A stretch of 64,000 nt of DNA, from the NCBI RefSeq assembly GCF_012317045.1, contig NZ_CP051154.1:868001-932000 (forward strand). The letters run 5' to 3'. Position 1 is the first letter of the stretch. Each line of letters starts with the position of its first letter. A model generated the notes under the pieces. The model was not told the DNA's origin, did not search any database, and was given only the letters and a program-made list of their open reading frames with translations. The position numbers and the translations under genes are program-made. Origin of the DNA: Leifsonia sp. PS1209 (GTDB taxonomy: Bacteria; Actinomycetota; Actinomycetes; Actinomycetales; Microbacteriaceae). Shown in pieces: positions 4,085 through 23,629 of the stretch.

Positions 4085-4106
4085 TTGCGTATTCGCAAAG
4101 GTTGCG
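4085..4106 (+). promoter_or_regulatory. Composite operator, copy A (TTGCG-N4-CGCAA-N3-TTGCG)
   Basis: TTGCG (4085-4089), spacer tatt, CGCAA (4094-4098), spacer agg, TTGCG (4102-4106). It sits between the divergent zinc-ribbon and aquaporin genes. A TATTTT-like -10 begins about 19 bases after the palindrome (4117), so binding would cover the -35 region of the rightward promoter. Confidence 0.7.
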
Positions 4107-4203
4107 CTAGACCTTGTATTTTTCTGAAGGTCGTCCTAGCATTCGATTGCAAAGGACACGCTGGTGGTGCGTGCCCGTACCTGTTCGATGGTGGAGGTGC
4201 GGC

Positions 4204-5241
4204 ATGACTGACGAATCGATCCCGGTCCTGTTCCGAGGTTCCGGACTGAAGCGACGAGGTGGCCTCTGGGGTGAGTGTTTGGCCGAGTTTCTTGGCACGT
4301 TCGTGCTGATCAGCTTTGGTGACGGGGTGGTTGCGATGGCGGTGGCGGCGCTGCCGGGCTCGGGGCGCACGGAAGGGCCGACGACGTTCTTCCTCGGAAC
4401 GGGCGACTGGCTGCTGATCACCTGGGGGTGGGCGTTCGCGGTGGTGTTTGGCGTGTACATCGCCGGCGGTGTCAGCGGGGCCCACCTGAATCCGGCAATC
4501 ACGTTAGCGTTTGCGATCCGGCGGAAGTTCGCCTGGGTGAAAGTGCTGCCCTATATGGCCTCGCAGCTTGTGGGTGCGTTCGTCGGAGCCGCGCTGGTGC
4601 TGCTCGTATACGTCAGTGCGATCAATGCGTTCGACGCGGCGAGCAAGGGAACGAAGGTCAATGGGCATACGTTGGCGTCGTTCTCGATCTTCGCCACTTT
4701 CCCCGCGCCGTATTTTCACGGGAACATGTGGTGGCCGCTGATCGATCAGATCGTTGGCACCATGTTCCTGGTGCTGATTGTGGTCGCGGTGATCGATCTG
4801 AGGAACACGGCGGTGCAGTCGAATCTTGGTCCGCTGATCATCGGGTTCGCCGTGGCGGCGATCGGGATCTCGTTCGGCGCGAACGCCGGGTACGCCATCA
4901 ACCCGGCCCGTGACCTTGGGCCGCGGCTCCTCGCCTGGGCGGCAGGATGGGGGAACCTCGCTGTGCCGGGAGATGGCGACTGGTTCAGCGGCTACATGTG
5001 GGTGCCGATCTTGGGTCCGTTGATCGGCGGCATCGTCGGTGTCCTCGTCTACGACCTGTTCATCGGCGACGTGCTGAACGCCCGCAAGATGCGGCTCGCG
5101 GTAGAGCGGGGTGGCCACCGGGTGGAGCGTGTGACCACAAATGGTCGGCCTCCTGGGCCCGACACGTTGGAGGCTGACGGGTACGGCGCACGCGCTGGGC
5201 GGCCTCCGGGACCGGATACGCCGGAGACGGGCGGCAGATAG
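4204..5241 (+). CDS. MIP-family channel (aquaglyceroporin, GlpF-like)
   Basis: A 345-aa membrane channel for water or small polyols such as glycerol. Both half-helix motifs are intact: HLNPAIT (NPA at 96-98) and INPARDLGPR (NPA at 233-235). The Asp after the second NPA-Arg (D237) is typical of glycerol facilitators rather than strict water channels. Six membrane segments can be followed. The C-terminal tail is unusual, with the phrase RPPGPDT occurring twice about 20 residues apart in a hydrophilic extension. The ATG at 4204 has GGTGGAGG upstream; the frame is open 90 bases further but without a better start. Operator copy A lies in its promoter region. Confidence 0.9.
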   Translation: MTDESIPVLFRGSGLKRRGGLWGECLAEFLGTFVLISFGDGVVAMAVAALPGSGRTEGPTTFFLGTGDWLLITWGWAFAVVFGVYIAGGVSGAHLNPAITLAFAIRRKFAWVKVLPYMASQLVGAFVGAALVLLVYVSAINAFDAASKGTKVNGHTLASFSIFATFPAPYFHGNMWWPLIDQIVGTMFLVLIVVAVIDLRNTAVQSNLGPLIIGFAVAAIGISFGANAGYAINPARDLGPRLLAWAAGWGNLAVPGDGDWFSGYMWVPILGPLIGGIVGVLVYDLFIGDVLNARKMRLAVERGGHRVERVTTNGRPPGPDTLEADGYGARAGRPPGPDTPETGGR

Positions 5242-5328
5242 AGGCACACTCGTGGAATGTGAGCTGCGAGTGGCGGCGACTGGTGCGAGGACACGTTCAC
5301 TCCCGGGTCCTCGCACCAGCACGCTGAC

Positions 5329-6198: not shown

Positions 6199-6206
6199 GG
6201 GTCAGG

Positions 6207-6986
6207 TCAGTGGGTGTCGGCGACCGCGAGCTGGATGTAAACCCCCGTCAGCAAGGTGAAGATGTATGCCTGCAGCACCCCGACGAGGATCTCCATCAGT
6301 GTGAACGCGAATGCGAACACTAGCGTGCCGACACCGAACAGTTTGAACAACCCGGGTGCTTCGAAGATAAACCATTCGGTCCCGGAGAAGAACAGCACCA
6401 GCAGCAGGTGCCCGACGACCATGTTCATCATCAACCGCAGAATGAGCGTCACCGGTCGCACCAGGAACGTTGAGATCAGTTCGATCGGGGTGACGATGAT
6501 GTACAGCGGCCACGGCACGCCCGGTGGGAACAACGCGTTGCGGAAGAAGCCGCCCGGTGAGTGTCGGATGCCAGCGTAGACGAACGTGCCGTAGGTGACG
6601 ATGGCGAGCACTAACGGCACTCCGATTACCGCAGATCCCGCCATGTTCAGTCCGGGGATGATGCTGGTGAGGTTGAAGAAGAGCACCATGAAGAAGATCG
6701 TCGTCAAGAGCGGCAGGAACCGTCTGCCGTCCTTCTTTCCTAACAGGTCCTCAGCGATGTTGACGCGGACGAAGTCCAAGCCGAGTTCGATAACGCTCTG
6801 CCAGCGACCGGGCACGACCTTCAGTCGTCTTGTTCCCAGCCCGAAGACGAGAACGATCGCAAGCGTGGCGATGAGGCGAATGATGGTGACCCTGTTGACT
6901 TCGAACGGGGTCCCTGCGAACAACAGGGCGGGTGGGAAGAAGTCGTTGATGGAGGGCCCGGTGAATCCGGAGTCGGCGAGGAGCAA
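6207..6986 (-). CDS. atpB: F0F1 ATP synthase subunit a, stand-alone copy
   Basis: A 259-aa polytopic protein clearly related to F0 subunit a, the stator half of the proton channel. The essential arginine is present (R184 in LILRLMMNMVVGHLLL), as are the conserved VTPIELIS helix and the C-terminal helix ending GVYIQL. Length is normal. What is odd is the setting: no other ATP synthase subunit gene is near, and the neighbours are stress and redox genes. It is divergent from an SRPBCC gene with operator copy B between them. It could replace the housekeeping subunit under stress or act as a proton leak; both are inferences. Confidence 0.9.
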   Translation of the reverse strand: MLLADSGFTGPSINDFFPPALLFAGTPFEVNRVTIIRLIATLAIVLVFGLGTRRLKVVPGRWQSVIELGLDFVRVNIAEDLLGKKDGRRFLPLLTTIFFMVLFFNLTSIIPGLNMAGSAVIGVPLVLAIVTYGTFVYAGIRHSPGGFFRNALFPPGVPWPLYIIVTPIELISTFLVRPVTLILRLMMNMVVGHLLLVLFFSGTEWFIFEAPGLFKLFGVGTLVFAFAFTLMEILVGVLQAYIFTLLTGVYIQLAVADTH

Positions 6987-7095
6987 AGGGGGCGTCTACT
7001 TTCGGGGCGATCGGGCGCGTAGCCCGCTGGTCGTCGAGGTGGCGGGCCGGCGGCAGTATCCCCACCGCCAACCCATCTCATCGTAGTAGTATTCA

Positions 7096-7117
7096 TTGCG
7101 AAATCGCAACGGTTGCG
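7096..7117 (+). promoter_or_regulatory. Composite operator, copy B
   Basis: TTGCG (7096-7100), spacer aaat, CGCAA (7105-7109), spacer cgg, TTGCG (7113-7117). All three half-sites are perfect. It lies in the divergent region between atpB (start 6986) and the SRPBCC gene (start 7161). Confidence 0.7.
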
Positions 7118-7160
7118 AAGGAGCACGAACTCGTGCTCTCCTGGACGCGAGGAGGTCTTC

Positions 7161-7700
7161 ATGGCCGCGCCAACTGGTCGCCTGATTCGGAGAGACGACG
7201 GTGTCTACGTCGTCCTCGACCGCATCTTCCACGCCTCGATCGAAGAGGTGTGGTCCTATCTGAGCCGGTCCCCGCGACTGGCCAGCTGGGTGGGAGAATT
7301 CACGGGGTCGCCGGCAACCGGGGCGCTCCGCTTCCGGCTGAACGGGGACGACGCCGCCTGGGAGGATGTGTCAGTACTCGAGTGTGAGGCGCCACATCGG
7401 TTCGCTGCCGACATCGGGCGCGCGGGAGACTCGTGGCGGGTCTACTGGCATGTCGTCCAATCCGGTGGCCACACCACGCTCACGTTCGGCCGTCGCCTTG
7501 GTGTGCTGACGGACAGTTCGGAAGGGGCACGCTGGGACTACTACCTCGACCGGCTCGTCGCGGTGCACGACCGGACGGCTCTGCCGAGGTGGGAGGAGTA
7601 CGTCCCAGCAATGAGTCGCTACTATCAGATGCTGGCCACGCTTCCTCTGCAGGAACGGGGAACCAGGCAGAACACTGCCCCTGCTGCCGGGCAGGGCTGA
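7161..7700 (+). CDS. SRPBCC (START-like) family protein
   Basis: A 179-aa protein with the features of the SRPBCC/AHSA1 helix-grip fold: an N-terminal strand, the phrase IFHASIEEVWSYLSRSPRLA typical of these lipid- or ligand-binding cavities, and a Trp-rich core. Members bind hydrophobic ligands or act as small cyclases or chaperones; the ligand here cannot be read from sequence. The ATG at 7161 is set by GGAGG seven bases ahead. Operator copy B lies about 45 bases upstream. Confidence 0.7.
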   Translation: MAAPTGRLIRRDDGVYVVLDRIFHASIEEVWSYLSRSPRLASWVGEFTGSPATGALRFRLNGDDAAWEDVSVLECEAPHRFAADIGRAGDSWRVYWHVVQSGGHTTLTFGRRLGVLTDSSEGARWDYYLDRLVAVHDRTALPRWEEYVPAMSRYYQMLATLPLQERGTRQNTAPAAGQG

Positions 7701-7790
7701 CGTTTCGCCGCACTGTCGTCCAGAGTAGGCAAGGCCCCGTCGGCGTGCACAGTCCGTTCACGCTCGTGCAGCCCTCGACCGAGATGCGCG

Positions 7791-8450: not shown

Positions 8451-8460
8451 TGTAGCGTCC

Positions 8461-8487
8461 CTATCTGTGAATCACATTCACAGATAG
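8461..8487. promoter_or_regulatory. Probable TetR operator
   Basis: A perfect inverted repeat with 12-bp arms (CTATCTGTGAAT and its complement) around a 3-base centre, placed 10 bases upstream of the SDR start and 10 bases upstream of the tetR start. This is the usual arrangement for a divergently transcribed TetR autorepressor. Confidence 0.75.
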
Positions 8488-8496
8488 GAGCTGTTC

Positions 8497-9330: not shown

Positions 9331-9357
9331 ACAGACCCAGCCTAGAAGGGACCCCGC

Positions 9358-9908: not shown

Positions 9909-11258
9909 CTACGGCGCGTGATTCTTCTCCTCCGTCTGCCCGGCGATCGCCCGCTCGAAAGTCCTGCGCGGATGTTGGACGGCGGACGTGGATGTCAGGT
10001 CCCGGATTGCGAGGACGTTTGCGGCCCAGTTCGCCGCGAGTCGTATCCGTCTGGACATGCTGGGAAGAGCTGCACCGTGGTAGGCCTTGTCGATGACCCA
10101 GGCGAGCTGGCCTCGAACCGGCACGCCCTTGACGACGCCGGCGCCGCGCCGTGCGCCGAAGCTCGCGAGGGTGCCGAGCGACGTGTGCCGGTACGCGAAC
10201 GGTTCGGTGCCATCCAGGACGCGGAGGATGTTGTCTGCGACGAGTTGGGCTTGTCGGAGAGCGTGTTGGGCAGTTGGCGGGCAGAATGCGGGTTGTGAGG
10301 GCGCGGTGAGGTTGGGGATTTCGGCGTTGTCGCCGATCGCCCACGCACCAGGTAGTGGTGTGCCGTCGTTGTCGATCACTTGGAGGCGCGCGTTGGCTTG
10401 AACGTGACCTTTGCTACCTCGGGGAGCGTTCGTCCGGTCCAGCTCCGGGTTGGGGGTGACGCCGGCCGCCCACACGATCGTGTCCGCGCCGAGCTGGGTG
10501 CCGTCCGTGAGGTGGACGATACCGTTCTCGCAGGAGCGCATTTCCGTGTTCGTTTTCACGGTGATCCCGCGCCGCCGGAGGAGGCGGAGGGTCCAGTCGG
10601 AGAGCGAAGGGGGTAGCTCCGTAGCGATCCGACCAGCTGCTTCCACAAGAATCCAGTGCTGCGCTGCCTGGTCCAAAGTGGGGTAGCTTGCATGGGCGCG
10701 GCTGGCGAGATCCTGGAGCTCGGCCATCGCTTCAACCCCGGTGTAACCGCCGCCGACGAAGACGAAGGAGAGGGCGCGGTTGCGAACGGCGGCGTCTGTC
10801 GTGCTCGCCGCAGATTGGATGCGGTCCAGGACATGGTTGCGGAGGAACACGGCCTCCTCAAGTGATTCGAATCCGACGGCATGTTCGGCCAGACCGGATA
10901 TTGGCGCTGCTTTCGTGACGGCGCCGAGGGCGAAGACAACGTGGTCGTATCGGGTCGCTCGTTCGGTTCCGTCGAGGGTGCGTATCACGGCGGTCTTCGA
11001 CCGGCAGTCGACGGATTCGATCGTCCCGCCGACGACGGTGGCGAAGGAGAGCGGCCGGGAAAGGTCGACGGTGACATCACGAGGTTGGGTGTGGCCCCCA
11101 GCGACTTCGGGCAGCAGGGGTTTGTATGTCATGTACGGTCGCGGTTCGACCACCGTCACGCGCACGCGTCCGGACAGTGCGGCGCGGCGAAGTCCTCGAG
11201 CAGCGTGGAAGCCTGCATACCCGCCACCGAGAATGAGGATGTGCGGCGCCGCGGTCAC
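9909..11258 (-). CDS. ndh: Type II NADH dehydrogenase (NDH-2)
   Basis: A 449-aa FAD-dependent NADH:quinone oxidoreductase that passes electrons to menaquinone without pumping protons. The FAD motif ILILGGGYAGFHAAR is at the N-terminus and the NAD(P)H motif FVFVGGGYTGVEAMAEL is central; AIGDNAEI closes the FAD domain. The C-terminal helical part is present for peripheral membrane attachment. Its GTG start overlaps the stop of the upstream SDR gene in a GTGA arrangement (11255-11258), so translation is coupled. Confidence 0.88.
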   Translation of the reverse strand: MTAAPHILILGGGYAGFHAARGLRRAALSGRVRVTVVEPRPYMTYKPLLPEVAGGHTQPRDVTVDLSRPLSFATVVGGTIESVDCRSKTAVIRTLDGTERATRYDHVVFALGAVTKAAPISGLAEHAVGFESLEEAVFLRNHVLDRIQSAASTTDAAVRNRALSFVFVGGGYTGVEAMAELQDLASRAHASYPTLDQAAQHWILVEAAGRIATELPPSLSDWTLRLLRRRGITVKTNTEMRSCENGIVHLTDGTQLGADTIVWAAGVTPNPELDRTNAPRGSKGHVQANARLQVIDNDGTPLPGAWAIGDNAEIPNLTAPSQPAFCPPTAQHALRQAQLVADNILRVLDGTEPFAYRHTSLGTLASFGARRGAGVVKGVPVRGQLAWVIDKAYHGAALPSMSRRIRLAANWAANVLAIRDLTSTSAVQHPRRTFERAIAGQTEEKNHAP

Positions 11259-12025
11259 AGCCCGACGCTTCCCTGCATGATCCCACCGTCGACGAAAACG
11301 GTGGTCGCTGTCAGGTAACGGCCCTGGTTGGACGCCACGAAGATCACCGTGTCGGCGATCGCCGACGGATCGGCGACCGTTCGGAGCGGGATGCTTTGCT
11401 CGAGTTTTCGGCGACTGTCCGGGTCGGTCATCGTCGCCGCATTGATCGGAGTGTTCACCGCTCCGGGGGCCACGTTGACGACGCGCACCCCGTGCGGGCC
11501 GAGCTCGACCCCGGCCGTTCGGGTGAGCATCCGCATGGCACCTTTGGAGACGCAGTAGGCGATATTGCCGGGCATCGGCCAGTCCTCATGAACCGAGGAC
11601 ATGTTCACGACCACACCTCCCTCGGGGCCTTGCTGGATGAATTGCTCGGCCGCGAATTTCGTTCCGAAGAACGCACTGCGAACGTTCACCGCGATAACTT
11701 CGTCGAAGGTGTCCTCGTCGATCTCGAGCAGGGACATGCGTTTTTCGATTCCGGCGTTGTTCACGAACACGTCCAGCCGTCCAAACTCGTCGACCGCGGC
11801 TCGGATCAGCTTCTGGATGCCGTCGGGTTGGGAAACATCTGCCTCGACGCCGATTGCTTCGCCTCCGGTGGAAACGATCTGTTGCACGAGGTCGGCAGTG
11901 TCGTCGGGATGGGCGACGTAGTCGATCACGACGCGTGCACCCTCCGCTGCTGCTGCGATCGCGGTGGCGGCACCTATGCCGCTGTTACCGCCGGTGACCA
12001 CGATGGTCTTGCCATCTAATTGCAT
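11255..12025 (-). CDS. SDR family oxidoreductase, glucose-1-dehydrogenase-like
   Basis: A 256-aa classical SDR with TGGNSGIG (11-18), NNAG, the catalytic Ser in NMSSVHEDW and YCVSK. Overall it resembles bacterial glucose 1-dehydrogenase / 3-oxoacyl reductase-type enzymes (inference from motif spacing). ATG at 12025 has GGGGAGA ahead; the frame continues open upstream without a ribosome binding site. The gene ends inside the GTG of ndh, so NADH made by this enzyme could be reoxidised directly by its partner. Operator copy C lies 46 bases upstream. Confidence 0.82.
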   Translation of the reverse strand: MQLDGKTIVVTGGNSGIGAATAIAAAAEGARVVIDYVAHPDDTADLVQQIVSTGGEAIGVEADVSQPDGIQKLIRAAVDEFGRLDVFVNNAGIEKRMSLLEIDEDTFDEVIAVNVRSAFFGTKFAAEQFIQQGPEGGVVVNMSSVHEDWPMPGNIAYCVSKGAMRMLTRTAGVELGPHGVRVVNVAPGAVNTPINAATMTDPDSRRKLEQSIPLRTVADPSAIADTVIFVASNQGRYLTATTVFVDGGIMQGSVGL

Positions 12026-12070
12026 GCGTTCTCCCCTCGGGATGGATTGTCCGCAATTGTAAGCAAGCAA

Positions 12071-12092
12071 TTGCGATGCCGCAATCATTGCG
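12071..12092 (+). promoter_or_regulatory. Composite operator, copy C
   Basis: TTGCG (12071-12075), spacer atgc, CGCAA (12080-12084), spacer tca, TTGCG (12088-12092); all half-sites perfect. It faces the leftward SDR-ndh operon. A further CGCAA half-site lies at 12052-12056. Confidence 0.7.
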
Positions 12093-12209
12093 AATGACCT
12101 CGATATCCAATCAGGGAAGTGGTAGGACTCTCCGGTCGCGTGCCCACGAGCTCGGGTCGATTCCCGGGCAATTCATCGTTAGCAGCATCTTCACTAAGGC
12201 TGGCGTTGG

Positions 12210-12231
12210 TGCAATAATTGCGCTGTAGCAA
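12210..12231 (-). promoter_or_regulatory. Composite operator, copy D (degenerate)
   Basis: Read on the minus strand: TTGCT, spacer acag, CGCAA, spacer tta, TTGCA. The spacing is identical to the other copies, with one mismatch in each outer half-site. It lies 18 bases upstream of the small repeat-protein gene that opens the rightward operon. Confidence 0.5.
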
Positions 12232-12249
12232 CTAATCGAGGTGAGAAGG

Positions 12250-12483
12250 ATGGACAAAGCAAGAGACGAGTTCGCAACCGAACGGGATTCTCTAGAGGGG
12301 CAGTACACCCAGCACGGGGACACCGCGCCACGCACGGTGCACGGTCAATACACCGAGACCGAGGCGGAGGCACCCGACCCGCACGTCGAGGGAGAGTACA
12401 CCGGCGCCTCCCACCACGGTGAAGCACCAGAGGTGACGAGCACGGAGAAGCGTCACGGCAACTACCCGAAGGCGGAGCACTGA
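12250..12483 (+). CDS. Small hydrophilic protein with four GxY repeats
   Basis: A 77-aa, strongly acidic and probably disordered protein. The motif [E/H]-G-x-Y-[T/P] recurs four times: EGQYT (16-20), HGQYT (31-35), EGEYT (47-51) and HGNYP (69-73). No membrane segment or cysteine is present. ATG at 12250 is set by GAGGTG six bases ahead. It is the first gene of a long rightward operon and directly follows operator copy D. The regularly placed Tyr and His could bind metal or act in desiccation or oxidation protection; that is speculation. Confidence 0.7.
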   Translation: MDKARDEFATERDSLEGQYTQHGDTAPRTVHGQYTETEAEAPDPHVEGEYTGASHHGEAPEVTSTEKRHGNYPKAEH

Positions 12484-13888: not shown

Positions 13889-14529
13889 CAACCCTGCCGC
13901 TCTCGCCAAGCAACGGCGGCGACCGTTTCCCCGGCTTCGATGTCCTCAGCCAACGTGAGCACTGGGATGCGGCCACCGAGGCCGTCGTCGAGTCACGGCT
14001 CGGGCTGCTGCCGCAGATGCGATTCTTCGACGTCGTCGAGGAAGCGTGCGCCACCGCACTCTTCGACCAGCTCCTCGATCAGCGCGATGAACCCCGGGTG
14101 CCCGTCACCCGGATGGTGGACTCCCGGCTGGCGGAGAAGGAGACCGACGGGTGGCACTACGACTCGATGCCGGCCGACCCGGACGCCTGGCGGCGTTCGT
14201 TGGCCGCCCTCGACGACGACGCGAACGCCACGTATGGTGCCGTGTTTGCTGACTGCACCTGGAACGACCAGCATGCACTACTAGCCGACATTCAGCGCCT
14301 CGGATCCGCCGACTGGCATGGCATGCCAGCGTCGGCCGTGTGGGGGTTGTGGACCCGGTACGCGTGCACCGCGTTCTATTCACACCCGTCGGCGTGGAAC
14401 GAGATCGGCTTCGCCGGCCCCGCCTACCCGCGCGGCTACAAGAACCTCGGCATCGACCGGCGTGAACCGTTCGAAGTCGCCGACGCGAACCCCGACGACG
14501 ACCCCACCAGGACATCCGATGCCCGATAA
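13885..14529 (+). CDS. Gluconate 2-dehydrogenase subunit 3 family protein
   Basis: A 214-aa protein resembling the small (gamma) subunit of FAD-dependent gluconate 2-dehydrogenases; the stretch AFYSHPSAWNEIGFAGPAYP is typical of the family. Usual members carry a Tat signal peptide, but none is visible here (start MTTLPLSPSNGGDRFPGF), so the complex may be cytoplasmic. The ATG overlaps the previous stop, and the 3' end overlaps the GMC gene by 11 bases, consistent with a two-subunit enzyme. Confidence 0.8.
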   Translation: MTTLPLSPSNGGDRFPGFDVLSQREHWDAATEAVVESRLGLLPQMRFFDVVEEACATALFDQLLDQRDEPRVPVTRMVDSRLAEKETDGWHYDSMPADPDAWRRSLAALDDDANATYGAVFADCTWNDQHALLADIQRLGSADWHGMPASAVWGLWTRYACTAFYSHPSAWNEIGFAGPAYPRGYKNLGIDRREPFEVADANPDDDPTRTSDAR

Positions 14530-16171
14530 GGTGCGGGAACGCAACGAGTCCGCATGGCTGCTCACGCCGAACGGCGCCGCGCCAGAACACCGCCTCCGCG
14601 ACGACATGCGCCGCTTCGACGACAACGACGACGTGGACCTGGTCATCGTCGGGTGTGGTGCAGGCGGATCGACGCTCCTGCAACGGGCTGCGCGATCCGG
14701 CTGGACGGTCGTCGCCTTGGACGCCGGCCCGTTCTGGAACCCCGAAACCGACTGGGTGAGCGACGAAGCCGGCTCCCATCAGCTTTATTGGACAGAACCA
14801 CGCCAGATCGGCGGCGGCGACCCCGTCCCGCTCGGATCCAACAACTCCGGCCGCGGAGTCGGCGGGTCGATGGTGCACTACGCCGGATACACCCCCCGGT
14901 TCCACCCCAGTGACTTCCACACCCGGACGGCGGATGGTGTCGGCGCTGACTGGCCGATCGCTTACGACGACCTCCGTCCCTATTACTCCGCCATCGAGGG
15001 CGAACTGCCGGTGGCGGGGGAGGACTGGCCGTGGGGCGACCCGCACTCGTACCCGCACCGCCCGCATCCCGTCTCCGGGAACGGGGAGGTGTTCCAACGC
15101 GGTGCCCTGGCGTGCGGGATCACGGCGAAGGTAGGACCGGTCGCGATCGCGAACGGCCGGTTCGGCAACCGGCCGCACTGCATCTACCGCGGCTTCTGCC
15201 TGCAGGGCTGCAAGGTCAACGCGAAGGCGTCACCGCTGATCACCCACATCCCGGACGCGCTCGCGCACGGCGCAGAAGTACGCGCGGACAGCATGGTGAC
15301 CTCCATCGGCATCGACCAGCGCACCGGGCTAGCAAACGGCGTGCACTACGTGAAAGACGGCCGGCCACGGTTCCAGCACGCACGAATGGTCGCGATCGCC
15401 GGATACTCCATCGAGACACCCCGCCTGCTGCTGAACTCGACCTCCGCCCGCTTCCCGAATGGGCTCTGCAACGACTTCGACCAGGTCGGCCGCTTCCTGA
15501 TGGTGCAGGGCGCACCGCAAACCGCCGGACGATTCGACGCAGAGATCCGAATGTGGAAAGGACCGCCACCGGAAGTCAGCACCGAACAGTTCTACGAAAC
15601 CGACCCGACCAAACCGTACAAGCGCGGCTTCTCCATCCAGACCGTCTCCCCGCTACCGATCACCTGGGCGGAACACGTCATGGCAGAAGGCCGCTGGGGA
15701 GCGGACCTGCGCAACTACATGTCCGACTACGTGCACTGGGCCTGCTTCGGAGCGCTCTGCGAGTTCCTGCCCCAACCCGATAACCGGGTCACCCTCAGCG
15801 CGGAGAAGGACCGGTACGGGCTGCCGATCGCCCACTTCTCCTACACCCAATGCGACAACGACCGAGCGCTGGCCCATGCGGCGCAAAAGGTGATGGAGCG
15901 AATCCTCACCGCAGCCGGCGCCCGCGAGACCATCACCATCCAACGCTACGCACACCTCGTCGGCGGGGCCAGAATGGCCGCGCGTGAGGAAGACGGCGTG
16001 GTGGACGCTGACTGCCGCAGCTTCGCCGTTCCCAACCTGCTCATCACCGACGGCAGTGTCCTACCGACCCAGGGCAGCGCCAATCCGGCCCTGACCATCA
16101 TGGCGATCGCCGCCCGCGCAGCCGACCGACTGCTGAAACACCCGAACAGAATCGAAAGAGGAATCACATGA
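14519..16171 (+). CDS. GMC-family oxidoreductase (gluconate 2-dehydrogenase large-subunit type)
   Basis: A 550-aa FAD-dependent sugar or polyol dehydrogenase. The FAD motif VIVGCGAGGSTLLQRAA lies near residue 42, SGRGVGGSMVHYAG is the GMC signature region, RYAHLVGGARM holds the C-terminal active-site His, and TDGSVLPTQGSANPAL is the typical C-terminal FAD contact. No Tat signal is seen. It overlaps both the small-subunit gene and the downstream ThDP gene. The cytochrome c subunit that accepts electrons in Gram-negative gluconate dehydrogenases is absent, so the acceptor must differ. Confidence 0.87.
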   Translation: MPDKVRERNESAWLLTPNGAAPEHRLRDDMRRFDDNDDVDLVIVGCGAGGSTLLQRAARSGWTVVALDAGPFWNPETDWVSDEAGSHQLYWTEPRQIGGGDPVPLGSNNSGRGVGGSMVHYAGYTPRFHPSDFHTRTADGVGADWPIAYDDLRPYYSAIEGELPVAGEDWPWGDPHSYPHRPHPVSGNGEVFQRGALACGITAKVGPVAIANGRFGNRPHCIYRGFCLQGCKVNAKASPLITHIPDALAHGAEVRADSMVTSIGIDQRTGLANGVHYVKDGRPRFQHARMVAIAGYSIETPRLLLNSTSARFPNGLCNDFDQVGRFLMVQGAPQTAGRFDAEIRMWKGPPPEVSTEQFYETDPTKPYKRGFSIQTVSPLPITWAEHVMAEGRWGADLRNYMSDYVHWACFGALCEFLPQPDNRVTLSAEKDRYGLPIAHFSYTQCDNDRALAHAAQKVMERILTAAGARETITIQRYAHLVGGARMAAREEDGVVDADCRSFAVPNLLITDGSVLPTQGSANPALTIMAIAARAADRLLKHPNRIERGIT

Positions 16172-18003
16172 CAACGGTCAGCGAGTTTGTGATCGAGCGT
16201 ATCAAAGCGTGGGGAGTCACTCGGGTGTTCGGGTTCCCCGGCGACGGCATCGGCGAGTTCGACGGTGCACTCGGGAAGGCCGAACGGGACGGTGTCGGCG
16301 TCGAATACATCCGACCCACCCACGAAGAGGTCTGCGCACTGATGGCGACAGCGCACGCCAAATTCACCGGCGAAACCGGCGTGTGCACCGCGACCTCGAG
16401 CCCGGGAGCGTTCCACCTGATCAACGGCCTCTACGACGCGAGGATGGACAACCAGCCCGTCGTCGCGATCGTCGGCCAGCAGGGCTTGAACTCCCTCGGA
16501 ACCTTCAATCAGCAGGAGAACAACCTCGAACGGGTGTTCGCCGATGTCGCCTGCTACGTGCAGACCATCGTCTCGCCCGAACAGGCGCAGGCCGTGATCG
16601 ACACCGCGTTCCGCACCGCCCGGGTGCGTCTGCAAGCCGCGGTCGTCATCTTGCCTCACGACGTTCAAGGGATGAAGATGACGCCTCCCTCGCCTGAGAT
16701 GTGGGTGTCACGGTCGAGCGCTGTCGCCCCGTCCACCTCTGTCGTCCCGCCGCGCAGCGAACTCGTGAAGGCGGCCGCGATCATCAACGCCGGGCGTAAA
16801 GTCACCTTCCTTGTCGGGCACGGCGCCAATGGGGCGACCGACGAGGTCCTCGAAGCGGCACGGCTCTCCGGCGCCGGAATCATCACGGCTCTACGCGGCA
16901 AGCAGGTGATCCCGGCCGAGATTCCCTATCACTCACAGCAGCTCGGACTGCTCGGGTCGCTGCCCAGCCTGCACCAGATCAAGGACTGCGACACGCTGGT
17001 GATGCTCGGCACCGACTACCCGTACGGTCAATTCCTGCCCGCTACCGGGCAGGCGCGGGCCATTCAGGTCGATCTCAAGCCTGAACAGCTGGGTTTGCGC
17101 TATCCCACCGAGCTGAACCTCTGGGGTGACGTGAAGGCCACGCTGGCAGAGCTCATCCCGCTCCTTGACGAAACGACCGACCTCGACTGGCAACAGAAGG
17201 TCGCCGACGAGATGGTCGAGTGGGAGTCGGAGATGGAAGCGCAGGCGCTGTTGCACTATGACGACGGTGTGAACCCGCGACGTGTGTATCACGAGCTCAA
17301 CAAACGCCTGCCGCCGCAGGCCATCGTCACCGCCGACGCCGGGACAACAGCCGACTGGTACGGACACCACATCCGGCTGCGTCGCGGGATGCTCGGCGAC
17401 CTCTCCGGTCGGCTCGCGACGATGCTCGCCGCGATGCCGTACGCGGTCGCTGCAAAGTTCGCATACTCGGACAGGACTGTCATCTGCACCATCGGTGACG
17501 GTGCGTTCCAGATGCTCGGCATGAACGAGCTCATCACGGTGAAGAAGTACATTGACCGGTGGGACAACCCGCAACTAATCGTCCTTGTCCTGCACAACAA
17601 CGACCTCACCCAGGTGTCCTGGGAAATGCGGACTGAAGACGCGAACCCCGTGTGGAACACCGCCCAGGTGGTCGAGAGCGTCGACTACGCCGGCTGGGCG
17701 GAACTGCTCGGATTCCGCAGCATCACGGTCACCGATGACGACCAGGTCGTTGCAGCCTGGGACGACGCGTTCGCCCACCGGGGTGTGACGCTCATCGACG
17801 CACACACCAGCAAGAACGTGCCACCTCTGCCCCCGCACATCACTGCCGAATACGCGAAGAATACCGCGACAGCGTTGCTGAAAGGCGACCCGAGCGATAT
17901 GGCGGTGATCCGCGACTCCGCAGCGGCACTGTTCGCCGAAGGGGTCGAGCGTGTCAAAGACCGACTGCACCTCGGTGACACAACTGACGAGAAGAGCGAA
18001 TAG
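16168..18003 (+). CDS. Thiamine pyrophosphate-requiring enzyme (pyruvate oxidase/acetolactate synthase type)
   Basis: A 611-aa ThDP enzyme with the three-domain layout of the pyruvate oxidase / acetolactate synthase family. The activating Glu is E53 in THEEVCALMA. The ThDP-Mg site is IGDGAFQMLGMNEL (about residue 445) ending in the NN pair of LHNNDLTQ. Members decarboxylate pyruvate or another 2-oxo acid to acetate, acetyl phosphate or acyloins; the exact reaction cannot be told from sequence. Start and stop overlap or abut the neighbouring genes (16168-16171 overlap; next ATG at 18004). CO2 released here could be handled by the nearby carbonic anhydrase. Confidence 0.87.
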   Translation: MTTVSEFVIERIKAWGVTRVFGFPGDGIGEFDGALGKAERDGVGVEYIRPTHEEVCALMATAHAKFTGETGVCTATSSPGAFHLINGLYDARMDNQPVVAIVGQQGLNSLGTFNQQENNLERVFADVACYVQTIVSPEQAQAVIDTAFRTARVRLQAAVVILPHDVQGMKMTPPSPEMWVSRSSAVAPSTSVVPPRSELVKAAAIINAGRKVTFLVGHGANGATDEVLEAARLSGAGIITALRGKQVIPAEIPYHSQQLGLLGSLPSLHQIKDCDTLVMLGTDYPYGQFLPATGQARAIQVDLKPEQLGLRYPTELNLWGDVKATLAELIPLLDETTDLDWQQKVADEMVEWESEMEAQALLHYDDGVNPRRVYHELNKRLPPQAIVTADAGTTADWYGHHIRLRRGMLGDLSGRLATMLAAMPYAVAAKFAYSDRTVICTIGDGAFQMLGMNELITVKKYIDRWDNPQLIVLVLHNNDLTQVSWEMRTEDANPVWNTAQVVESVDYAGWAELLGFRSITVTDDDQVVAAWDDAFAHRGVTLIDAHTSKNVPPLPPHITAEYAKNTATALLKGDPSDMAVIRDSAAALFAEGVERVKDRLHLGDTTDEKSE

Positions 18004-19197
18004 ATGCGCTCGGCCGACTGGATCGACCAGCTCACGGTCAGCGCGTACACCGTGCCGACGACGACGGCTGGCGTCCCCCAACAGGAATCGGACGGCACCG
18101 CCGTGTGGGACTCGACCGGCGTGCTCGTCGTCGAGGCGGCGTCGGACGGGTTGGTCGGCCTGGGGTACGCATACACGTCCTCGGCGGCGGTCCGCGTCGT
18201 TCGAGATCAGCTCGCACCGATCGTGCTCGGTTCGAACAGGATGGACATCGAATCGACGTTCTGGTCGATGGCTGAAACCATGCGCAACCTCGGCTGGGAA
18301 GGAGTGTGCGCAAGCGCGATCTCCGCCGTCGACATCGCGATCCATGACCTCCGAGCCAAGCGACTCGACACCGCTCTGGTCCGCCTCCTCGGTCGTGCCA
18401 GATCGAAGGTCATGGCGTACGGAAGCGGCGGATTCACCAGTTACTCTGCCGCTCAGCTTCACGGGCAGTTCAGCGCCTGGGCAGATGACGGCTTTCGCGC
18501 CGTGAAGATGAAGGTCGGATCGTCCCCGGCCGACGATGTGCAACGCGTGGCCGCGGCGCGGGCAGCGATCGGAACGCGAGTCGCCCTGTTCGTCGACGCG
18601 AACGGCGCATACGATCGCAAACAAGCGCTCGGGTTCTCGGAACGATTCCACGAGCAGGACGTCACCTGGTTCGAAGAACCCGTGTCCAGCGACGATCTGG
18701 CGGGACTCCGTTTTCTCCGCGACCGAGGTCCCGCGGGAATGCAGATCGCTGCGGGGGAGTACGGGTACACCCCGGCCTACTTCCTTCGCATGCTCAACGC
18801 CGGCGCCGTCGACACGATCCAGGCCGACGCAACCCGGTGCGGCGGAATCACGGGATTCACCCGAGCAGCTGCCATCGCGCAAGCCGCTGGTGTCCCGATC
18901 AGCGCGCACACGGCGCCGTCCATTCACGCAACCCTCGGCGCTGCCCTCTCCAATGTCGTGCATGTCGAGTATTTTCACGATCACGCGCACATCGAATCGC
19001 TCTTCTTCGACGGGCGTCCGGCGTTGACCGATGGAGACCTCGTACCCGACGCGAGTTCGCCGGGCCACGGTCTCACCCTGCGCAGGTCAGACAGCGAGCC
19101 TTATCTCGTCGACCAGCTGGTCATGACCCTCGACGAAGAGGGCCGGCGCTCGTCGCCTACGATTGCAGCGAAAAGGCGAAACGGCCGTCGTGGATAG
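18004..19197 (+). CDS. Enolase-superfamily enzyme (mandelate racemase/muconate-lactonizing type)
   Basis: A 397-aa enzyme with the N-terminal capping domain and a TIM barrel. The KMKVG motif on strand 2 provides a catalytic Lys; metal ligands are in FVDANGAYD, WFEEP and AGEYG, and SAHTAP carries a possible catalytic His. Members abstract the proton next to a carboxylate, for example in sugar-acid dehydration; in this operon a gluconate- or related sugar-acid dehydratase would fit (inference). It starts directly after the preceding stop, and its last 41 bases overlap the marR gene tail to tail. Confidence 0.83.
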   Translation: MRSADWIDQLTVSAYTVPTTTAGVPQQESDGTAVWDSTGVLVVEAASDGLVGLGYAYTSSAAVRVVRDQLAPIVLGSNRMDIESTFWSMAETMRNLGWEGVCASAISAVDIAIHDLRAKRLDTALVRLLGRARSKVMAYGSGGFTSYSAAQLHGQFSAWADDGFRAVKMKVGSSPADDVQRVAAARAAIGTRVALFVDANGAYDRKQALGFSERFHEQDVTWFEEPVSSDDLAGLRFLRDRGPAGMQIAAGEYGYTPAYFLRMLNAGAVDTIQADATRCGGITGFTRAAAIAQAAGVPISAHTAPSIHATLGAALSNVVHVEYFHDHAHIESLFFDGRPALTDGDLVPDASSPGHGLTLRRSDSEPYLVDQLVMTLDEEGRRSSPTIAAKRRNGRRG

Positions 19198-19639
19198 GCT
19201 CGCCGCCCGCCGCACTGGCGAAGACTTCGAACGCGGCGGCCACTCGCTTCTGTTCCTCATCTGGAAGGCTCTCCAGCACCTGGGTCATGGCAGTGCGGCG
19301 CTGATCCAGAACGTGGTTCACCAGATCAGAGCCGGCGTCGGTCAATTCGAGCCGGATGTAGCGGCGATCGCTCGGGTGGTCTGAGCGAGTGATGTATCCG
19401 GCTTGCACCAATTTCTCGCACGCTCGCGTCGCATTCGAAGGATGGACACCCAACTCGGATGCGACGGCGCCGAGGTTCTGCGGGCCCGTTGCGGCGATCA
19501 TCATCAGCACGCGAAGCTGCGGCGTCGTGACCCGGTCCTCGACCTCGAAGACGGATCGCGCGGCAACGCGCATCATGACATTCGCTGCCGACAGCGCTGC
19601 GTCTACGGCGCGTATAGCCGCCGGTCTCGAACTCGTCAT
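19157..19639 (-). CDS. MarR-family transcriptional regulator
   Basis: A 160-aa winged-helix regulator with a typical MarR core: TPQLRVLMMIAATGPQNLGA, the recognition helix HPSNATRACEKLVQAGYI and the wing SDHPSDRRYIRLELTDAG. Members bind inverted repeats as dimers and respond to oxidants or phenolic ligands. The gene is divergent from carbonic anhydrase, and a perfect copy of the composite operator (copy E) lies 23 bases upstream of its start. It is therefore my candidate for the regulator of all six copies and for autoregulation. No Cys is visible, so thiol-based sensing is unlikely. Confidence 0.88.
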   Translation of the reverse strand: MTSSRPAAIRAVDAALSAANVMMRVAARSVFEVEDRVTTPQLRVLMMIAATGPQNLGAVASELGVHPSNATRACEKLVQAGYITRSDHPSDRRYIRLELTDAGSDLVNHVLDQRRTAMTQVLESLPDEEQKRVAAAFEVFASAAGGEPIHDGRFAFSLQS

Positions 19640-19661
19640 GCTTTAAGTATTGCTCCAATCG

Positions 19662-19683
19662 TTGCGGACACGCAAACCTTGCG
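19662..19683 (+). promoter_or_regulatory. Composite operator, copy E (between marR and carbonic anhydrase)
   Basis: TTGCG (19662-19666), spacer gaca, CGCAA (19671-19675), spacer acc, TTGCG (19679-19683); all half-sites perfect. A TACTGT-like -10 for the rightward promoter starts at 19695, twenty bases after the palindrome. Its place in front of marR supports autoregulation. Confidence 0.75.
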
Positions 19684-19786
19684 CGTTCTGGCGCTACTGT
19701 GGAAGAGGCTCGGGTGCACGGGACCCAGGGGAGATCCGCCACCGCTCAGGCCGAATTGTTTCCAATCGTCCCGCCGAGGAGAGACT

Positions 19787-20431
19787 GTGACCCAATCTGC
19801 AACCGTCCTTCGAGAACTGCTTGTCGGCAACGCCCGATTCGTGGCCGGTACGCCACTGCATCCGCATCAGGACGTCGACCGGCGTGCGCACCTGTCGGCA
19901 TCGCAGGCGCCGATTGTCGCGATCTTCGGGTGTTCGGATTCACGTCTCGCCGCAGAGATCATCTTCGACCTCGGGCTCGGCGACGCGTTCGTGATCCGCA
20001 ACGCAGGACAGGTCGTCTCCGAATCGGTTCTCGGTTCGCTGGAATACGCGGTCGCAGTCCTGCACGTCCCTCTCGTCGTCGTCCTCGGTCACGACTCCTG
20101 CGGAGCGGTCGCTGCGGCTATCGACGCCCAGTCCGCTCACCCGCCGCTTCTGCCTGACCACATCAGGACGCTGATTGCTCCGATCGGCAGCGCTGTGCGC
20201 AGGGTCGCCGCGTCGACCGTCGACATCGATCCCGCCGAGGTCGGACGAGAGCACCTCCGCGACACCGTCACCGAGATCATCGAACGTTCCACCGTGATCC
20301 AGGCTGCTGTGGGCGCAGGCGAGCTCGCCGTGGTCGGCGCCAATTACAAGCTCGCCGAAGGCGCAGTTGCGCCCGATCGGGTCGTCGGACTGCTGGACGT
20401 CGACGCGCCACGGAACCACGGAGCGGCATGA
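19787..20431 (+). CDS. Beta-class carbonic anhydrase
   Basis: A 214-aa enzyme interconverting CO2 and bicarbonate. The zinc ligands are C49, H102 and C105, with the D51-R53 dyad in GCSDSR and the GHDSCGA motif. Length is normal for a bacterial beta-CA. GTG at 19787 has GAGGAGA ahead. It is followed by overlapping flavin-reductase and DUF488 genes. Operator copy E lies about 100 bases upstream, so it should respond together with marR. It could recycle CO2 formed by the ThDP enzyme or buffer cytoplasmic pH. Confidence 0.92.
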   Translation: MTQSATVLRELLVGNARFVAGTPLHPHQDVDRRAHLSASQAPIVAIFGCSDSRLAAEIIFDLGLGDAFVIRNAGQVVSESVLGSLEYAVAVLHVPLVVVLGHDSCGAVAAAIDAQSAHPPLLPDHIRTLIAPIGSAVRRVAASTVDIDPAEVGREHLRDTVTEIIERSTVIQAAVGAGELAVVGANYKLAEGAVAPDRVVGLLDVDAPRNHGAA

Positions 20432-21129: not shown

Positions 21130-21689
21130 GCGGCACCCGGATCTTCACGATCGGCCACTCCACGCACCCGCTTCTGGATTTCGTGGGGATGGTGAGAGCG
21201 CACGGCGTGGAGACGATCGTTGATGTGCGGAGCATCCCGAAATCGCGACACAACCCACAGTACGGAATCAGCGTGCTGCCCCAGGAGCTCGCCGCGACCG
21301 ACCTCGGATACCATCTCATTGAGAAACTCGGTGGTCTCCGCCATGGCAATCGCACGGACCTGAACGGCGGGTGGCGCAACGCATCGTTCCGGGCGTACGC
21401 CGACTACATGCAATCGCCTGCCTTCTCGGCAGGCCTGGACGAACTCATCTCCATCGCCGCCGACACAGTCGTCGCGATAATGTGCGCCGAGGCGGTTCCT
21501 TGGCGGTGTCACCGCTCACTGATCGCGGATGCGCTGCTCATCCGCCGCTTCGACATCATCGACATCTTCTCCAGAACCAATGCGAAACCGCACGGGCTCA
21601 CCTCCTTCGCTCGCGTCGACGGGGAACGGATCACATACCCCGGCGATGACGCGGATCAGCCTGACCAACGCGCCCATCATCGCGGTTGA
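21126..21689 (+). CDS. DUF488 domain-containing protein
   Basis: A 187-aa member of the DUF488 family: FTIGHSTHPLLDFV at the start, VDVRSIPKSRHNPQ, and the Cys/His-bearing phrase CAEAVPWRCHRSLIAD. The family's biochemical function is not known, though the conserved Cys and His suggest a metal or thiol site. GTG at 21126 overlaps the upstream stop. Its last 59 bases overlap the convergent GH15 gene. Confidence 0.8.
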   Translation: MSGTRIFTIGHSTHPLLDFVGMVRAHGVETIVDVRSIPKSRHNPQYGISVLPQELAATDLGYHLIEKLGGLRHGNRTDLNGGWRNASFRAYADYMQSPAFSAGLDELISIAADTVVAIMCAEAVPWRCHRSLIADALLIRRFDIIDIFSRTNAKPHGLTSFARVDGERITYPGDDADQPDQRAHHRG

Positions 21690-23481
21690 TGGGAATGCGA
21701 TCCTCTGTGGTGCTCGCACCGCCGGCCAACAGATGGAACGCGCTCCGCACGAGAGCGGTGTGACTGTACGCCTGCGGCGTGTTGCCCAGTTGACGGTGCG
21801 AGTGCGGGTCCCACTCCTCGCTCAATAGCCCGACGTCGTTGCGAAGCTCGAGGAGACGACCGAAGAGTTTGGCCGCCTCGGCAGAACGACCGGCGCCGTT
21901 CAAAGCGTCGACAAGCCAGAATGAGCACGCGATGAAGACGCCCTCCGTGCCGGGCAGCCCATCGTCGCTTTGTTCGGGGCGGTATCGCAGGACGAGTCCG
22001 TCCTCGGTCAGGTCTTTCCGAATAGCGTCGATCGTTCCGACCACCCGAGGGTCGTCGCCCGGCAGGAACCCGACCCGCGGGATGAGTAACAGGGATGCAT
22101 CGAGTTCATTGCTTCCGTATGCCTGCACGAACGTGTTGCGTGATCGGTCGAAACCGTGCTCGAGAATGTCACGCCGAATCTCGGCTCGCATCTGCTCCCA
22201 CTGTCGAACAGGGCCAGGCAGATCGAATCGGCGGGCGCCGTGGATCATCCTGTCGGCGGCCACCCAGCTCATGACCTTCGAGTATGTGAAGTGCTGCCGC
22301 GGACCGCGCATCTCCCACAGACCGTTGTCCGGGTCGCGCCAGGTACCCGCCACGTGTTCGAGGAGCGCGCATTGAAGGTCCCATGCGTCCTTTTCGTCGG
22401 CGCCGATCGACGTTCGAGCAAGCGCGAGGCCGCCCAGTACCTCTCCCCAGACATCGAGTTGGAACTGATCGGCGGCCGCATTTCCGATGCGTACTGGCGC
22501 CGAATCGGCGAAACCGGTCAGCCAGTCCAGTCTCTCCTCCGGGAATCGGCGGCGACCATCCAGCCCGTACATGATCTGCAACTCCGCAGGGTCCCCGGCA
22601 ACTGCCCGGAGAAGCCAATCTCGCCAGGAGCGGGCTTCGTCCGTGTATCCGGCGGTGAGCAGCGCCTGAAGAGTGAATGTGGCGTCGCGCAACCAGCAGA
22701 ATCGGTAGTCCCAGTTGCGTGGCCCACCGAGTTGTTCTGGCAATGACGTGGTCGCCGCGGCGACGATACCGCCGGTGGGTGCATACGTGAGCGCTTTCAG
22801 GGTGATGAGGGACCGTTGGATAGCGTCTCTGTTCGGTCCGGAGGCGGTGCTCAGCGCGCTCCACGTTCTCCAATACCCCTCGGTCGCTGCGAGCGCAGCG
22901 TCAGGGTCGGCGGGTTGAGGTCGAGGCAGGTGGCTAGGAGTCCACGTAAGCGAGAAGCGTACTCGGTCGCCGGCGCTCACGGTGAATTCTGCTGCCGTGC
23001 GCATATCGCGACCGGTGAGCGGAATGTCGGAGGTGATCTGGACGGAGTCAGGTCCTGCGACGGCGAGGATTCCCCGGTCGGTGCGCGTCACCCAAGGAAC
23101 CACATGGCCGTAGTCGAAGCGCAGTACGAGTTCCAGCTGCATCGGCACGGAGCCGGAGAGGCCTTCGACGATCCGCACCAATTCAGCGCTCTCGCCTCGG
23201 AGGGGCATGAAATCGGTTACTCTCACATGACCATCGCTGGTCTCCCATTCTGTGTCGAGAATGAGCGTATCGCCGCGGTAGCTACGGCGCGTGCAGCGAG
23301 ATGAGCCAGCGGGTGTCACGATCCAGCGTCCAGCAGATTCCTCATCCAGCAGGGCTGCGAAACACGCCGGAGAGTCGAAACGCGGCAGGCAGAGCCAATC
23401 GATCGAGCCGTCAGCGGCCACCAGCGCGGCGGTGTGGAGGTCGCCGATAATCGCGTGGTCCTCGATACGTGATCCATTCAC
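21631..23481 (-). CDS. Glycoside hydrolase family 15 (trehalase/glucoamylase-type)
   Basis: A 616-aa GH15 enzyme. The N-terminal phrase IEDHAIIGDLHTAALVAADG and the (alpha/alpha)6 catalytic domain are typical: RNWDYRFCWLRDATFTL, the acid Glu in DNGLWEMRGP and the base Glu in GLLSEEWDP. Actinobacterial members of this form act on trehalose or alpha-glucans; no signal peptide is seen, so cytoplasmic trehalose or glycogen-like substrates are likely. GTG at 23481 overlaps the stop of a 28-codon ORF in GTGA form, so its translation is probably coupled. The 3' end overlaps DUF488 by 59 bases. Operator copy F lies upstream. Confidence 0.88.
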   Translation of the reverse strand: MNGSRIEDHAIIGDLHTAALVAADGSIDWLCLPRFDSPACFAALLDEESAGRWIVTPAGSSRCTRRSYRGDTLILDTEWETSDGHVRVTDFMPLRGESAELVRIVEGLSGSVPMQLELVLRFDYGHVVPWVTRTDRGILAVAGPDSVQITSDIPLTGRDMRTAAEFTVSAGDRVRFSLTWTPSHLPRPQPADPDAALAATEGYWRTWSALSTASGPNRDAIQRSLITLKALTYAPTGGIVAAATTSLPEQLGGPRNWDYRFCWLRDATFTLQALLTAGYTDEARSWRDWLLRAVAGDPAELQIMYGLDGRRRFPEERLDWLTGFADSAPVRIGNAAADQFQLDVWGEVLGGLALARTSIGADEKDAWDLQCALLEHVAGTWRDPDNGLWEMRGPRQHFTYSKVMSWVAADRMIHGARRFDLPGPVRQWEQMRAEIRRDILEHGFDRSRNTFVQAYGSNELDASLLLIPRVGFLPGDDPRVVGTIDAIRKDLTEDGLVLRYRPEQSDDGLPGTEGVFIACSFWLVDALNGAGRSAEAAKLFGRLLELRNDVGLLSEEWDPHSHRQLGNTPQAYSHTALVRSAFHLLAGGASTTEDRIPINRDDGRVGQADPRHRRGM

Positions 23482-23564
23482 CGGTCGGCACTGCCATGCG
23501 TGACGCGTGCGACGCCACGGAGGATGCCGCCGGGGACTACCGCGGAGTTCTCGTACATATCCAT
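23478..23564 (-). CDS. Short leader ORF coupled to the GH15 gene
   Basis: ATG at 23564, preceded by AAAGGTG at good spacing, opens a 28-codon frame (MDMYENSAVVPGG to GSADR) whose TGA overlaps the GTG of the GH15 gene. The GH15 start itself has no ribosome binding site, so ribosomes probably reach it through this ORF. It may be a regulatory leader or the displaced N-terminus of a longer ancestral protein. Confidence 0.5.
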   Translation of the reverse strand: MDMYENSAVVPGGILRGVARVTHGSADR

Positions 23565-23607
23565 TGCGACACCTTTCGTCAGAACTGCGATCCATGCAAC
23601 CACATAC

Positions 23608-23629
23608 TTGCGCAAATGCAATAGTTGCC
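23608..23629 (+). promoter_or_regulatory. Composite operator, copy F (two mismatches)
   Basis: TTGCG (23608-23612), spacer caaa, TGCAA (23617-23621), spacer tag, TTGCC (23625-23629); same spacing as the perfect copies. It lies between the GH15 leader and the CaCA exchanger. ATGCAA (23616-23621) and TATGCT (23639-23644) could be the -35 and -10 of the rightward promoter with a 17-base spacer, so the element would cover the -35. Confidence 0.6.

Follow-up and report, generated by a model that had tools for sequence, protein, structure and literature searches.

Regulator and operator copies in the window

The 64,000-base stretch of the Leifsonia sp. PS1209 chromosome analysed here (NZ_CP051154.1, positions 868,001 to 932,000; hereafter the window, whose coordinates are used throughout unless the genome is named) carries six copies of a 22-base-pair (bp) operator pattern, TTGCG-N4-CGCAA-N3-TTGCG, and a gene for a MarR-family regulator. 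The pattern joins a palindrome, whose two half-sites stand 4 bp apart, to a third half-site 3 bp further on. A preliminary description, made from the sequence letters, had proposed it as the operator of a hidden regulon of this MarR; we find that the element is real and conserved and that the essentials of that reading are correct. Our pattern scan returned the six copies at the coordinates first reported, four of them exact and two with two mismatches, and they do occupy five divergent intergenic regions, those at 12071 and 12210 sharing one. The proposed repressor and the operators are listed below (aa, amino acids; ORF, open reading frame).

19157..19639, minus strand: MarR-family regulator, the proposed repressor (PF01047; AlphaFold2 model with a pLDDT, or predicted local distance difference test score, of 85.5)
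4085..4106, plus strand: operator 1, exact, three half-sites, between a 101-aa ORF (minus) and an aquaporin gene (plus)
7096..7117, plus strand: operator 2, exact, between an atpB paralog (minus) and an SRPBCC gene (plus)
12071..12092, plus strand: operator 3, exact, between an SDR gene (minus) and a gene for a 77-aa protein (plus)
12201..12231, no strand assigned: operator 4, with four half-sites in two 14-bp palindromes at a distance of 17 bp, before the 77-aa gene
19662..19683, plus strand: operator 5, exact, between marR (minus) and a carbonic anhydrase gene (plus)
23608..23629, plus strand: operator 6, two mismatches, between a GH15 gene (minus) and a CaCA gene (plus)

Operator 4 had been described as a minus-strand copy at 12210-12231. 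That copy is present, with its two mismatches, but the element is better read as the four half-sites TGGCG-N4-TGCAA-N3-TTGCG-N4-AGCAA at 12201-12231, directly before the small gene that starts at 12250. The layout of operator 5 also precedes MarR in Sinomonas, Raineyella and Aestuariimicrobium.

With up to three mismatches allowed, the window gave 14 matches, several of which are one element re-read on the opposite strand or in a shifted register, while 100 dinucleotide shuffles gave 2.95 +/- 1.78 (maximum 7). Scanning the whole genome with the 22-bp pattern had been suggested as a check. In the complete genome (4,091,164 bases) there are four exact 22-mers, every one in the window and within 15.6 kb of each other, and no exact copy was found elsewhere on the chromosome; the statement that the core half of the window lacks the element thus extends to the rest of the genome for exact copies. 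The next-best match is a single copy with one mismatch at genome position 635621. Matches with up to two mismatches numbered 13, compared with 9 for a reversed control, so that genome-wide only the exact class is informative. All four exact copies lie inside an integrative island of about 65.6 kb (genome 833835 to 899424), bounded by a 33-bp repeat of the end of tRNA-Ser(GGA), whereas the copy at 635621 lies outside it.

Geometry of the palindrome and the additional half-sites

The spacing of the palindrome was counted in 34 loci, which are the MarR loci of named genomes not met in earlier panels. TTGCG and CGCAA were separated by 4 bp in 59 palindromes and by each other gap from 0 to 11 bp in 0-2; the reversed form occurred 0 times. 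For the third half-site we pooled 89 unique exact palindromes (178 flanks) from 49 loci covering 964,639 bases, after removing one near-identical palindrome from the initial 90; these had been selected without reference to a third half-site. TTGCG stood at exactly +3 in 25/178 flanks, as against 0-2 at each of 39 other offsets, and in 52/178 flanks when one mismatch was allowed, as against 0-9. The third half-site first noticed in the window is therefore real. At up to one mismatch it accompanies 50 of the 89 palindromes and was found in each of 13 tabulated groups (ten named genera, the window and two further genus labels, listed apart), ranging from 4/4 in the window to 9/29 in other Leifsonia.

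A second palindrome (up to two mismatches) was found at a distance of 17 bp in 19 cases, reciprocal pairs being counted twice; at all other distances from 5 to 60 bp there were at most three, except for six at distance 6, a smaller peak that we attributed to self-overlap of the TTGCG/CGCAA core and did not use. Where a fourth half-site would be expected, at least three of five bases matched in 25/92 flanks, the highest count among 38 offsets; the runners-up had 20/92 and then 17, and the remainder 1-14. A fully conserved fourth half-site was rejected, given that columns 26-30 are near background and the offset peak is weak. A second dimer, held mostly through one half, would fit both the third half-site and the 17-bp data, and the cooperative binding envisaged in the preliminary description gains indirect support from the 17-bp peak together with the weak fourth half-site.

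The operator accompanies one clade of MarR proteins

The regulator scored 56.5 bits against PF01047 (cut-off 24.6). Its AlphaFold2 monomer model shows the helices and the wing of the winged helix-turn-helix (HTH) MarR fold, and the best Foldseek matches of the model are MarR-type regulators. Proteins of this family bind DNA as dimers, and a ligand or oxidation relieves that binding. As is usual for the family, a putative operator lies near the regulator's own promoter: the palindrome is 36 bp upstream of marR. The predicted recognition helix reads (V/I)H(P/A)SNATR, and its H, S, N, A, T and R are invariant in an alignment of 14 proteins.

Outside the source genome, the exact 22-mer occurred in 2/298 other genomes of a family panel and 3/395 other genomes of an order panel, the two panels overlapping. 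A homolog of the island MarR, at 48-61% identity, is encoded in all five of these genomes. Of the seven outside 22-mers, six are no more than 15 kb away from it, and the remaining one, in genome G191, is 133 kb from MarR and upstream of an aquaporin 91% identical to that of the window. In the three order-panel genomes, which belong to another family, MarR is 1.7-3.7 kb from the exact 22-mer. No such MarR was found at 1e-15 in six hand-picked congeners of the order-panel matches, all free of the pattern.

Close MarR orthologs (at least 55% identity) were present in 11/299 family-panel genomes, the source genome included. Taking one locus per genome and a stretch of about 3.4 kb for each, a 22-mer with up to two mismatches was found at 11/11 close MarR loci vs 2/19 more distant ones. 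The 11 genomes with a close MarR contain 47 exact palindromes, 30 of them (by hand count) no further than 20 kb from it, while four genomes with a distant MarR only had 1-2 exact palindromes each. An alignment-based MarR scan of named genomes returned 38 loci in ten genera (Leifsonia, Subtercola, Diaminobutyricibacter, Lacisediminihabitans, Arthrobacter, Paenarthrobacter, Pseudarthrobacter, Sinomonas, Raineyella and Aestuariimicrobium), which we take to fall in the Microbacteriaceae, Micrococcaceae and Propionibacteriaceae.

Ninety-three MarR loci were then compared, with distance counted upstream of the matched stretch and one locus used per family-panel genome (second copies in G028, G267 and G226 were excluded; L116, L117, L122 and L151, judged to be the same records as G090, G103, G191 and G125, were dropped here and from the spacing, half-site, promoter and further ortholog counts). 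A palindrome with at most one mismatch lay within 250 bp upstream in 40/45 MarR loci of at least 50% identity and in 8/48 below 50%. In most close orthologs its distance from MarR is about 40-180 bp. A class-wide MarR search (37/345 genomes) added 29 new loci, three of them with such a palindrome within 300 bp upstream. Among the MarR proteins below 50% identity, the palindrome was present at 3/5 with the SNATR helix and 5/43 without it; by these counts the predicted SNATR helix is a good though not strict predictor of the palindrome. Both main proposals of the preliminary description, the regulon and its assignment to this MarR, thus gain independent support from co-occurrence and proximity in the genome scans and from sites lying before the orthologs' own genes.

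Three genomes have two MarR copies, each with its own palindromes (G226, L113 and L114; G267, L111 and L112; G028, L102 and L103), and cross-talk or subfunctionalisation between such duplicates is possible. Genome G346, added as a seventh to the six congeners because its MarR (L191) was already known from the class-wide search, encodes a protein of only 38% identity with an HPSNATR helix, near and downstream of an exact palindrome whose third half-site reads TTGCA. This distant MarR, with helix and site both kept, suggests that the two are inherited together.

An association of this kind would also arise if the MarR were just a neighbour and another protein bound the sites. The 5-4-5 spacing resembles the geometry of FNR boxes; the source genome has CRP-type HTH matches, and the island encodes a TetR protein and, in a Pfam scan of 10 of the 36 ORFs listed left of the window, a weak XRE-like HTH match and two GAF-ANTAR proteins. 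We consider this improbable. None of the 23 PF13545 matches in the genome, of which one is over the cut-off, falls between 833835 and 899424, and a CRP/FNR regulator was rejected for want of such a match in the island. The island TetR was likewise rejected, having no homolog at 1e-8 in the 14 neighbourhoods compared; relatives were not searched for the XRE-like and GAF-ANTAR proteins, and ANTAR proteins bind RNA. Another regulator would moreover leave unaccounted for the palindrome's position upstream of MarR in most close orthologs and the three genomes of another family with MarR within 4 kb of the exact 22-mer.

The palindrome overlaps predicted promoters

Next, we examined how the palindrome is placed relative to promoters. 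When TTGCGN is taken as the -35 box, a -10-like hexamer of the form [TGA]A...T follows after a spacer of 17 bp in 28/178 cases and of 18 bp in 21/178, compared with 0-12 at 30 other spacers. Since the hexamers peak at this distance, the palindrome's first half reads as a -35 box. Each of the four exact copies in the window has a minus-strand hexamer at the 17-18 bp spacing; the predicted -10 elements are:

4070..4075, minus strand: TATCGT, 101-aa ORF, 17 bp from TTGCGA; ATG 6 nucleotides (nt) on
7080..7085, minus strand: TACGAT, atpB, 18 bp from TTGCGA
12056..12061, minus strand: TACAAT, SDR gene, 17 bp from TTGCGG
19646..19651, minus strand: AATACT, marR, 18 bp from TTGCGT; ATG 6 nt on

That the element covers the -35, as first suggested, holds, but the -10 had been placed too far away: instead of starting 18-20 bases after the palindrome, where the counts are 12, 7 and 6 (of 178), -10-like hexamers peak 9-10 bases past it. 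Inspected by eye, the promoters of three atpB orthologs have TAGGAT or TAGCAT at an equal spacing. The start codon comes about 6 nt after the -10 of marR in the window, in Sinomonas, Raineyella and Aestuariimicrobium and at one Arthrobacter locus, and these marR messages are therefore predicted to be leaderless. Before the orthologs of the 77-aa gene, the palindrome lies, again by eye, between a -10-like AATAAT, GATAAT or similar and the ribosome-binding site.

The third half-site, in the 52 cases at up to one mismatch, is upstream of the -35 in 16, in the spacer in 11 and readable both ways in three, with no such -10 in 22. Its distance is fixed to the palindrome and not to the promoter, so it looks like a protein-binding site and not a promoter element. 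This bears on the idea that TTGCGN is merely a -35 box and the third TTGCG the -35 of another promoter. The preferred 17-18 bp distance from the first half-site to a -10-like hexamer agrees with that idea; the third half-site, read as a -35, has no -10 peak (3/52 and 2/52 at spacers 17 and 18, 0-4 at others), and a second -35 was rejected on this ground. Nor would core promoters account for a CGCAA inverted at a constant distance of 4 bp, for a +3 spacing that holds whichever side of the -35 the third half-site lies on, or for the closeness to one MarR clade; we regard them as a highly improbable explanation.

Proposed repression by one MarR

Taken together, the six copies are probably operators of the MarR encoded at 19157-19639, a view we hold with considerable though not full confidence from sequence comparison: the protein is predicted to repress itself and a set of conserved stress genes by covering the -35. 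A first MarR dimer on the palindrome would block the contact of sigma with the -35. The third half-site would anchor a second dimer, whose outer half is weakly specified, and so raise occupancy cooperatively. Both dimers would be released by a signal; the gene set makes ion or pH stress a possible one. The conserved set under such repression would comprise marR itself, the 77-aa protein, the second atpB, SDR, the CaCA exchanger, aquaporin and flavin reductase.

Several observations weigh against this reading. The raw exact counts of the 22-mer are near those of the reversed control (4 vs 3 in the family panel, own genome excluded; 3 vs 0 in the order panel). With up to two mismatches, ten MarR-bearing genomes gave 89 vs 90 reversed, and exact palindromes in eleven genomes numbered 47 vs 82 reversed. 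Since totals barely exceed the reversed control outside the source genome, the case rests on where the matches lie and not on their number. Most pooled loci were picked because this MarR is encoded there, and related strains contributed many of them; the pooled counts are therefore not independent events. Five of the 45 close MarR loci have no palindrome (up to one mismatch) within 250 bp upstream, and both exact palindromes of genome G055 are away from MarR, although palindromes with one mismatch are present there. Below 50% identity the helix does not separate the loci cleanly: 2/5 SNATR proteins lack a site and 5/43 others have one. At up to one mismatch, the third half-site is missing from 39/89 palindromes, and it is missing ahead of the 77-aa gene in 11/15 orthologs; the fourth is just weakly above background. 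Genes for GMC, thiamine pyrophosphate (TPP), enolase-family and NDH-like enzymes seldom have the palindrome directly upstream.

The palindromes without a third half-site, and a fourth half nearly lost, could mean that a single dimer binds the palindrome and that the third half-site is an affinity-neutral remnant of an ancestral tandem repeat. We regard this as unlikely, though it deserves more weight than the other alternatives discussed here: every one of the 13 groups has at least one site that keeps the exact spacing (at up to one mismatch), and the third half-site occurs on either side of the -35, which is unexpected for a neutral remnant. It is very unlikely, on the other hand, that MarR activates some of the promoters, with the third half-site placing it beside sigma. 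The 16/52 third half-sites just upstream of the -35, with the three readable both ways, would suit an activator; there the palindrome lies over the -35, as the test was built to require, and such a position is in keeping with repression.

If the third half-site of the MarR operator does recruit a second dimer, its occurrence upstream, in the spacer or not at all, or completed to four half-sites, would form a natural series for testing the effect of operator layout on repression by a single MarR protein. The 22-bp pattern may also serve as a search string for further members of the regulon.

Comparison with known regulators

By sequence and by fold, the nearest solved relative of the island MarR is Rv1404 of Mycobacterium tuberculosis (PDB 2nyx), which is presented, in articles citing Healy et al. 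2016, as a coordinator of acid-stress adaptation (PMC5526998, PMC6536590). The two differ in the recognition-helix region, VQPSATGR in Rv1404 and VHPSNATR in the island type. None of the three loci with a Rv1404-type helix (L175, L176 and L179) has a palindrome with at most one mismatch within 250 bp upstream, the best candidates having 2-4 mismatches, so that neither the helix nor the operator marks the island MarR as an ortholog of Rv1404.

CrtR of Corynebacterium and Micrococcales is a MarR-type repressor of its own and another promoter, and for one strain a 52-bp footprint led its authors to suggest multiple sites (PMC6739363, PMC7432914). In these respects it is like the proposed regulator. 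It differs in its 15-bp motif with a central TTAA, where the island operator has the core TTGCG-N4-CGCAA, and in controlling carotenoid genes and not the island gene set; the text consulted in these articles describes no three-half-site layout. Operators of QacR-type TetR proteins bind two dimers each, on opposite sides of the DNA (PMC6018408). Two dimers on one elongated operator would be a shared feature, inferred only in the MarR case, whereas QacR belongs to the TetR family and the second site in the island keeps mainly one half. A three-half-site MarR operator was not described in the literature searched, which consisted mostly of papers readable without subscription, and this absence is no proof of novelty.

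Candidate target genes

The genes next to the operators are the following; the likely and possible targets are so graded from sequence.

3758..4063, minus strand: 101-aa ORF with a zinc-ribbon-like CxxC...CxxC tail; predicted leaderless target, less certain as a gene (G+C content at third codon positions, GC3, 0.63)
4204..5241, plus strand: aquaporin (MIP, PF00230); likely target
6207..6986, minus strand: second ATP synthase a subunit, atpB (PF00119); likely target
7161..7700, plus strand: SRPBCC/AHSA1 protein (PF08327, scanned as 7164-7700); possible target
11255..12025, minus strand: SDR oxidoreductase (PF13561), first gene, with one for a pyridine-nucleotide oxidoreductase after it; likely target
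12250..12483, plus strand: 77-aa hydrophilic protein, no Pfam family; likely target
19787..20431, plus strand: carbonic anhydrase (PF00484 in the frame 19403-20431); possible target
21631..23406 (piece scanned), minus strand: GH15 trehalase-like hydrolase (PF00723, PF19291)
23698..24765, plus strand: CaCA Na+/Ca2+ exchanger family (PF01699); likely target

We counted palindromes with 0-1 mismatch within 350 bp upstream of orthologs found by tblastn with window proteins only; targets missing from the window were not counted. An exact palindrome stands just ahead of the 77-aa gene in 15/15 orthologs. This protein has nine homologs at 1e-3, two of them named, as Leifsonia hypothetical proteins. 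The palindrome precedes atpB in 4/4 orthologs and flavin reductase in 2/2. For CaCA it was found in 3/4, 1/1 and 0/1 orthologs in three locus sets, and for aquaporin in 1/1, and 1/3 in further loci (exact palindromes only), the G191 ortholog also having the exact 22-mer upstream. Four of seven SDR orthologs have a palindrome with one mismatch about 40-60 bp upstream. Neither of two carbonic anhydrase orthologs had a palindrome upstream, and no homolog of the 101-aa ORF was found at 1e-8 in any of the 14 neighbourhoods.

Genomes of ten genera carry the 22-mer, or its core palindrome, close to the regulator gene, and the genes probably form a conserved stress set under joint control of one MarR-type repressor, predicted to bind this DNA element. 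From the gene set and the likeness to Rv1404 we would guess at ion, pH or energy stress. A regulator and targets are thereby proposed for a gene set of which parts recur beside MarR across ten actinobacterial genera. The island atpB stands alone, the other copy of the genome being at genome position 1386644, and its operator gives a starting point for asking why a stress-controlled second atpB would be retained. Three relatives have a matching promoter layout before atpB. A GH15 relative of 28-31% identity has the palindrome upstream at several Sinomonas, Raineyella, Aestuariimicrobium and Arthrobacter-group loci. The genes for a GMC oxidoreductase, a TPP enzyme (NF006129) and enolase-superfamily proteins (14318-19197 in the window) recur beside MarR at many loci.

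The integrative island

The right end of the island lies in the window, where the following features were found:

30062..31360, plus strand: tyrosine integrase of the island (PF00589)
31424..31456, plus strand: 33-bp att-like direct repeat of the tRNA-Ser(GGA) end, with its left copy at genome 833835-833867
31429-31516: tRNA-Ser(GGA), adjoining the integrase

With the regulator and its proposed targets in one integrative island, the regulon could move as a unit. A portable operator grammar is conceivable, and we advance it tentatively, as a joint claim that has somewhat less in its favor than against it: the -35 box itself would be a repressor half-site; a second MarR dimer at 17 bp, recruited through an extra half-site upstream of the -35 or in the spacer, would set the strength of repression; and regulator, operators and a spare ATP-synthase a subunit would travel together in the island. 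Left of the window, the 10-ORF Pfam scan also returned weak EccE/PrgI-like and HerA-like matches, which suggest conjugation genes.

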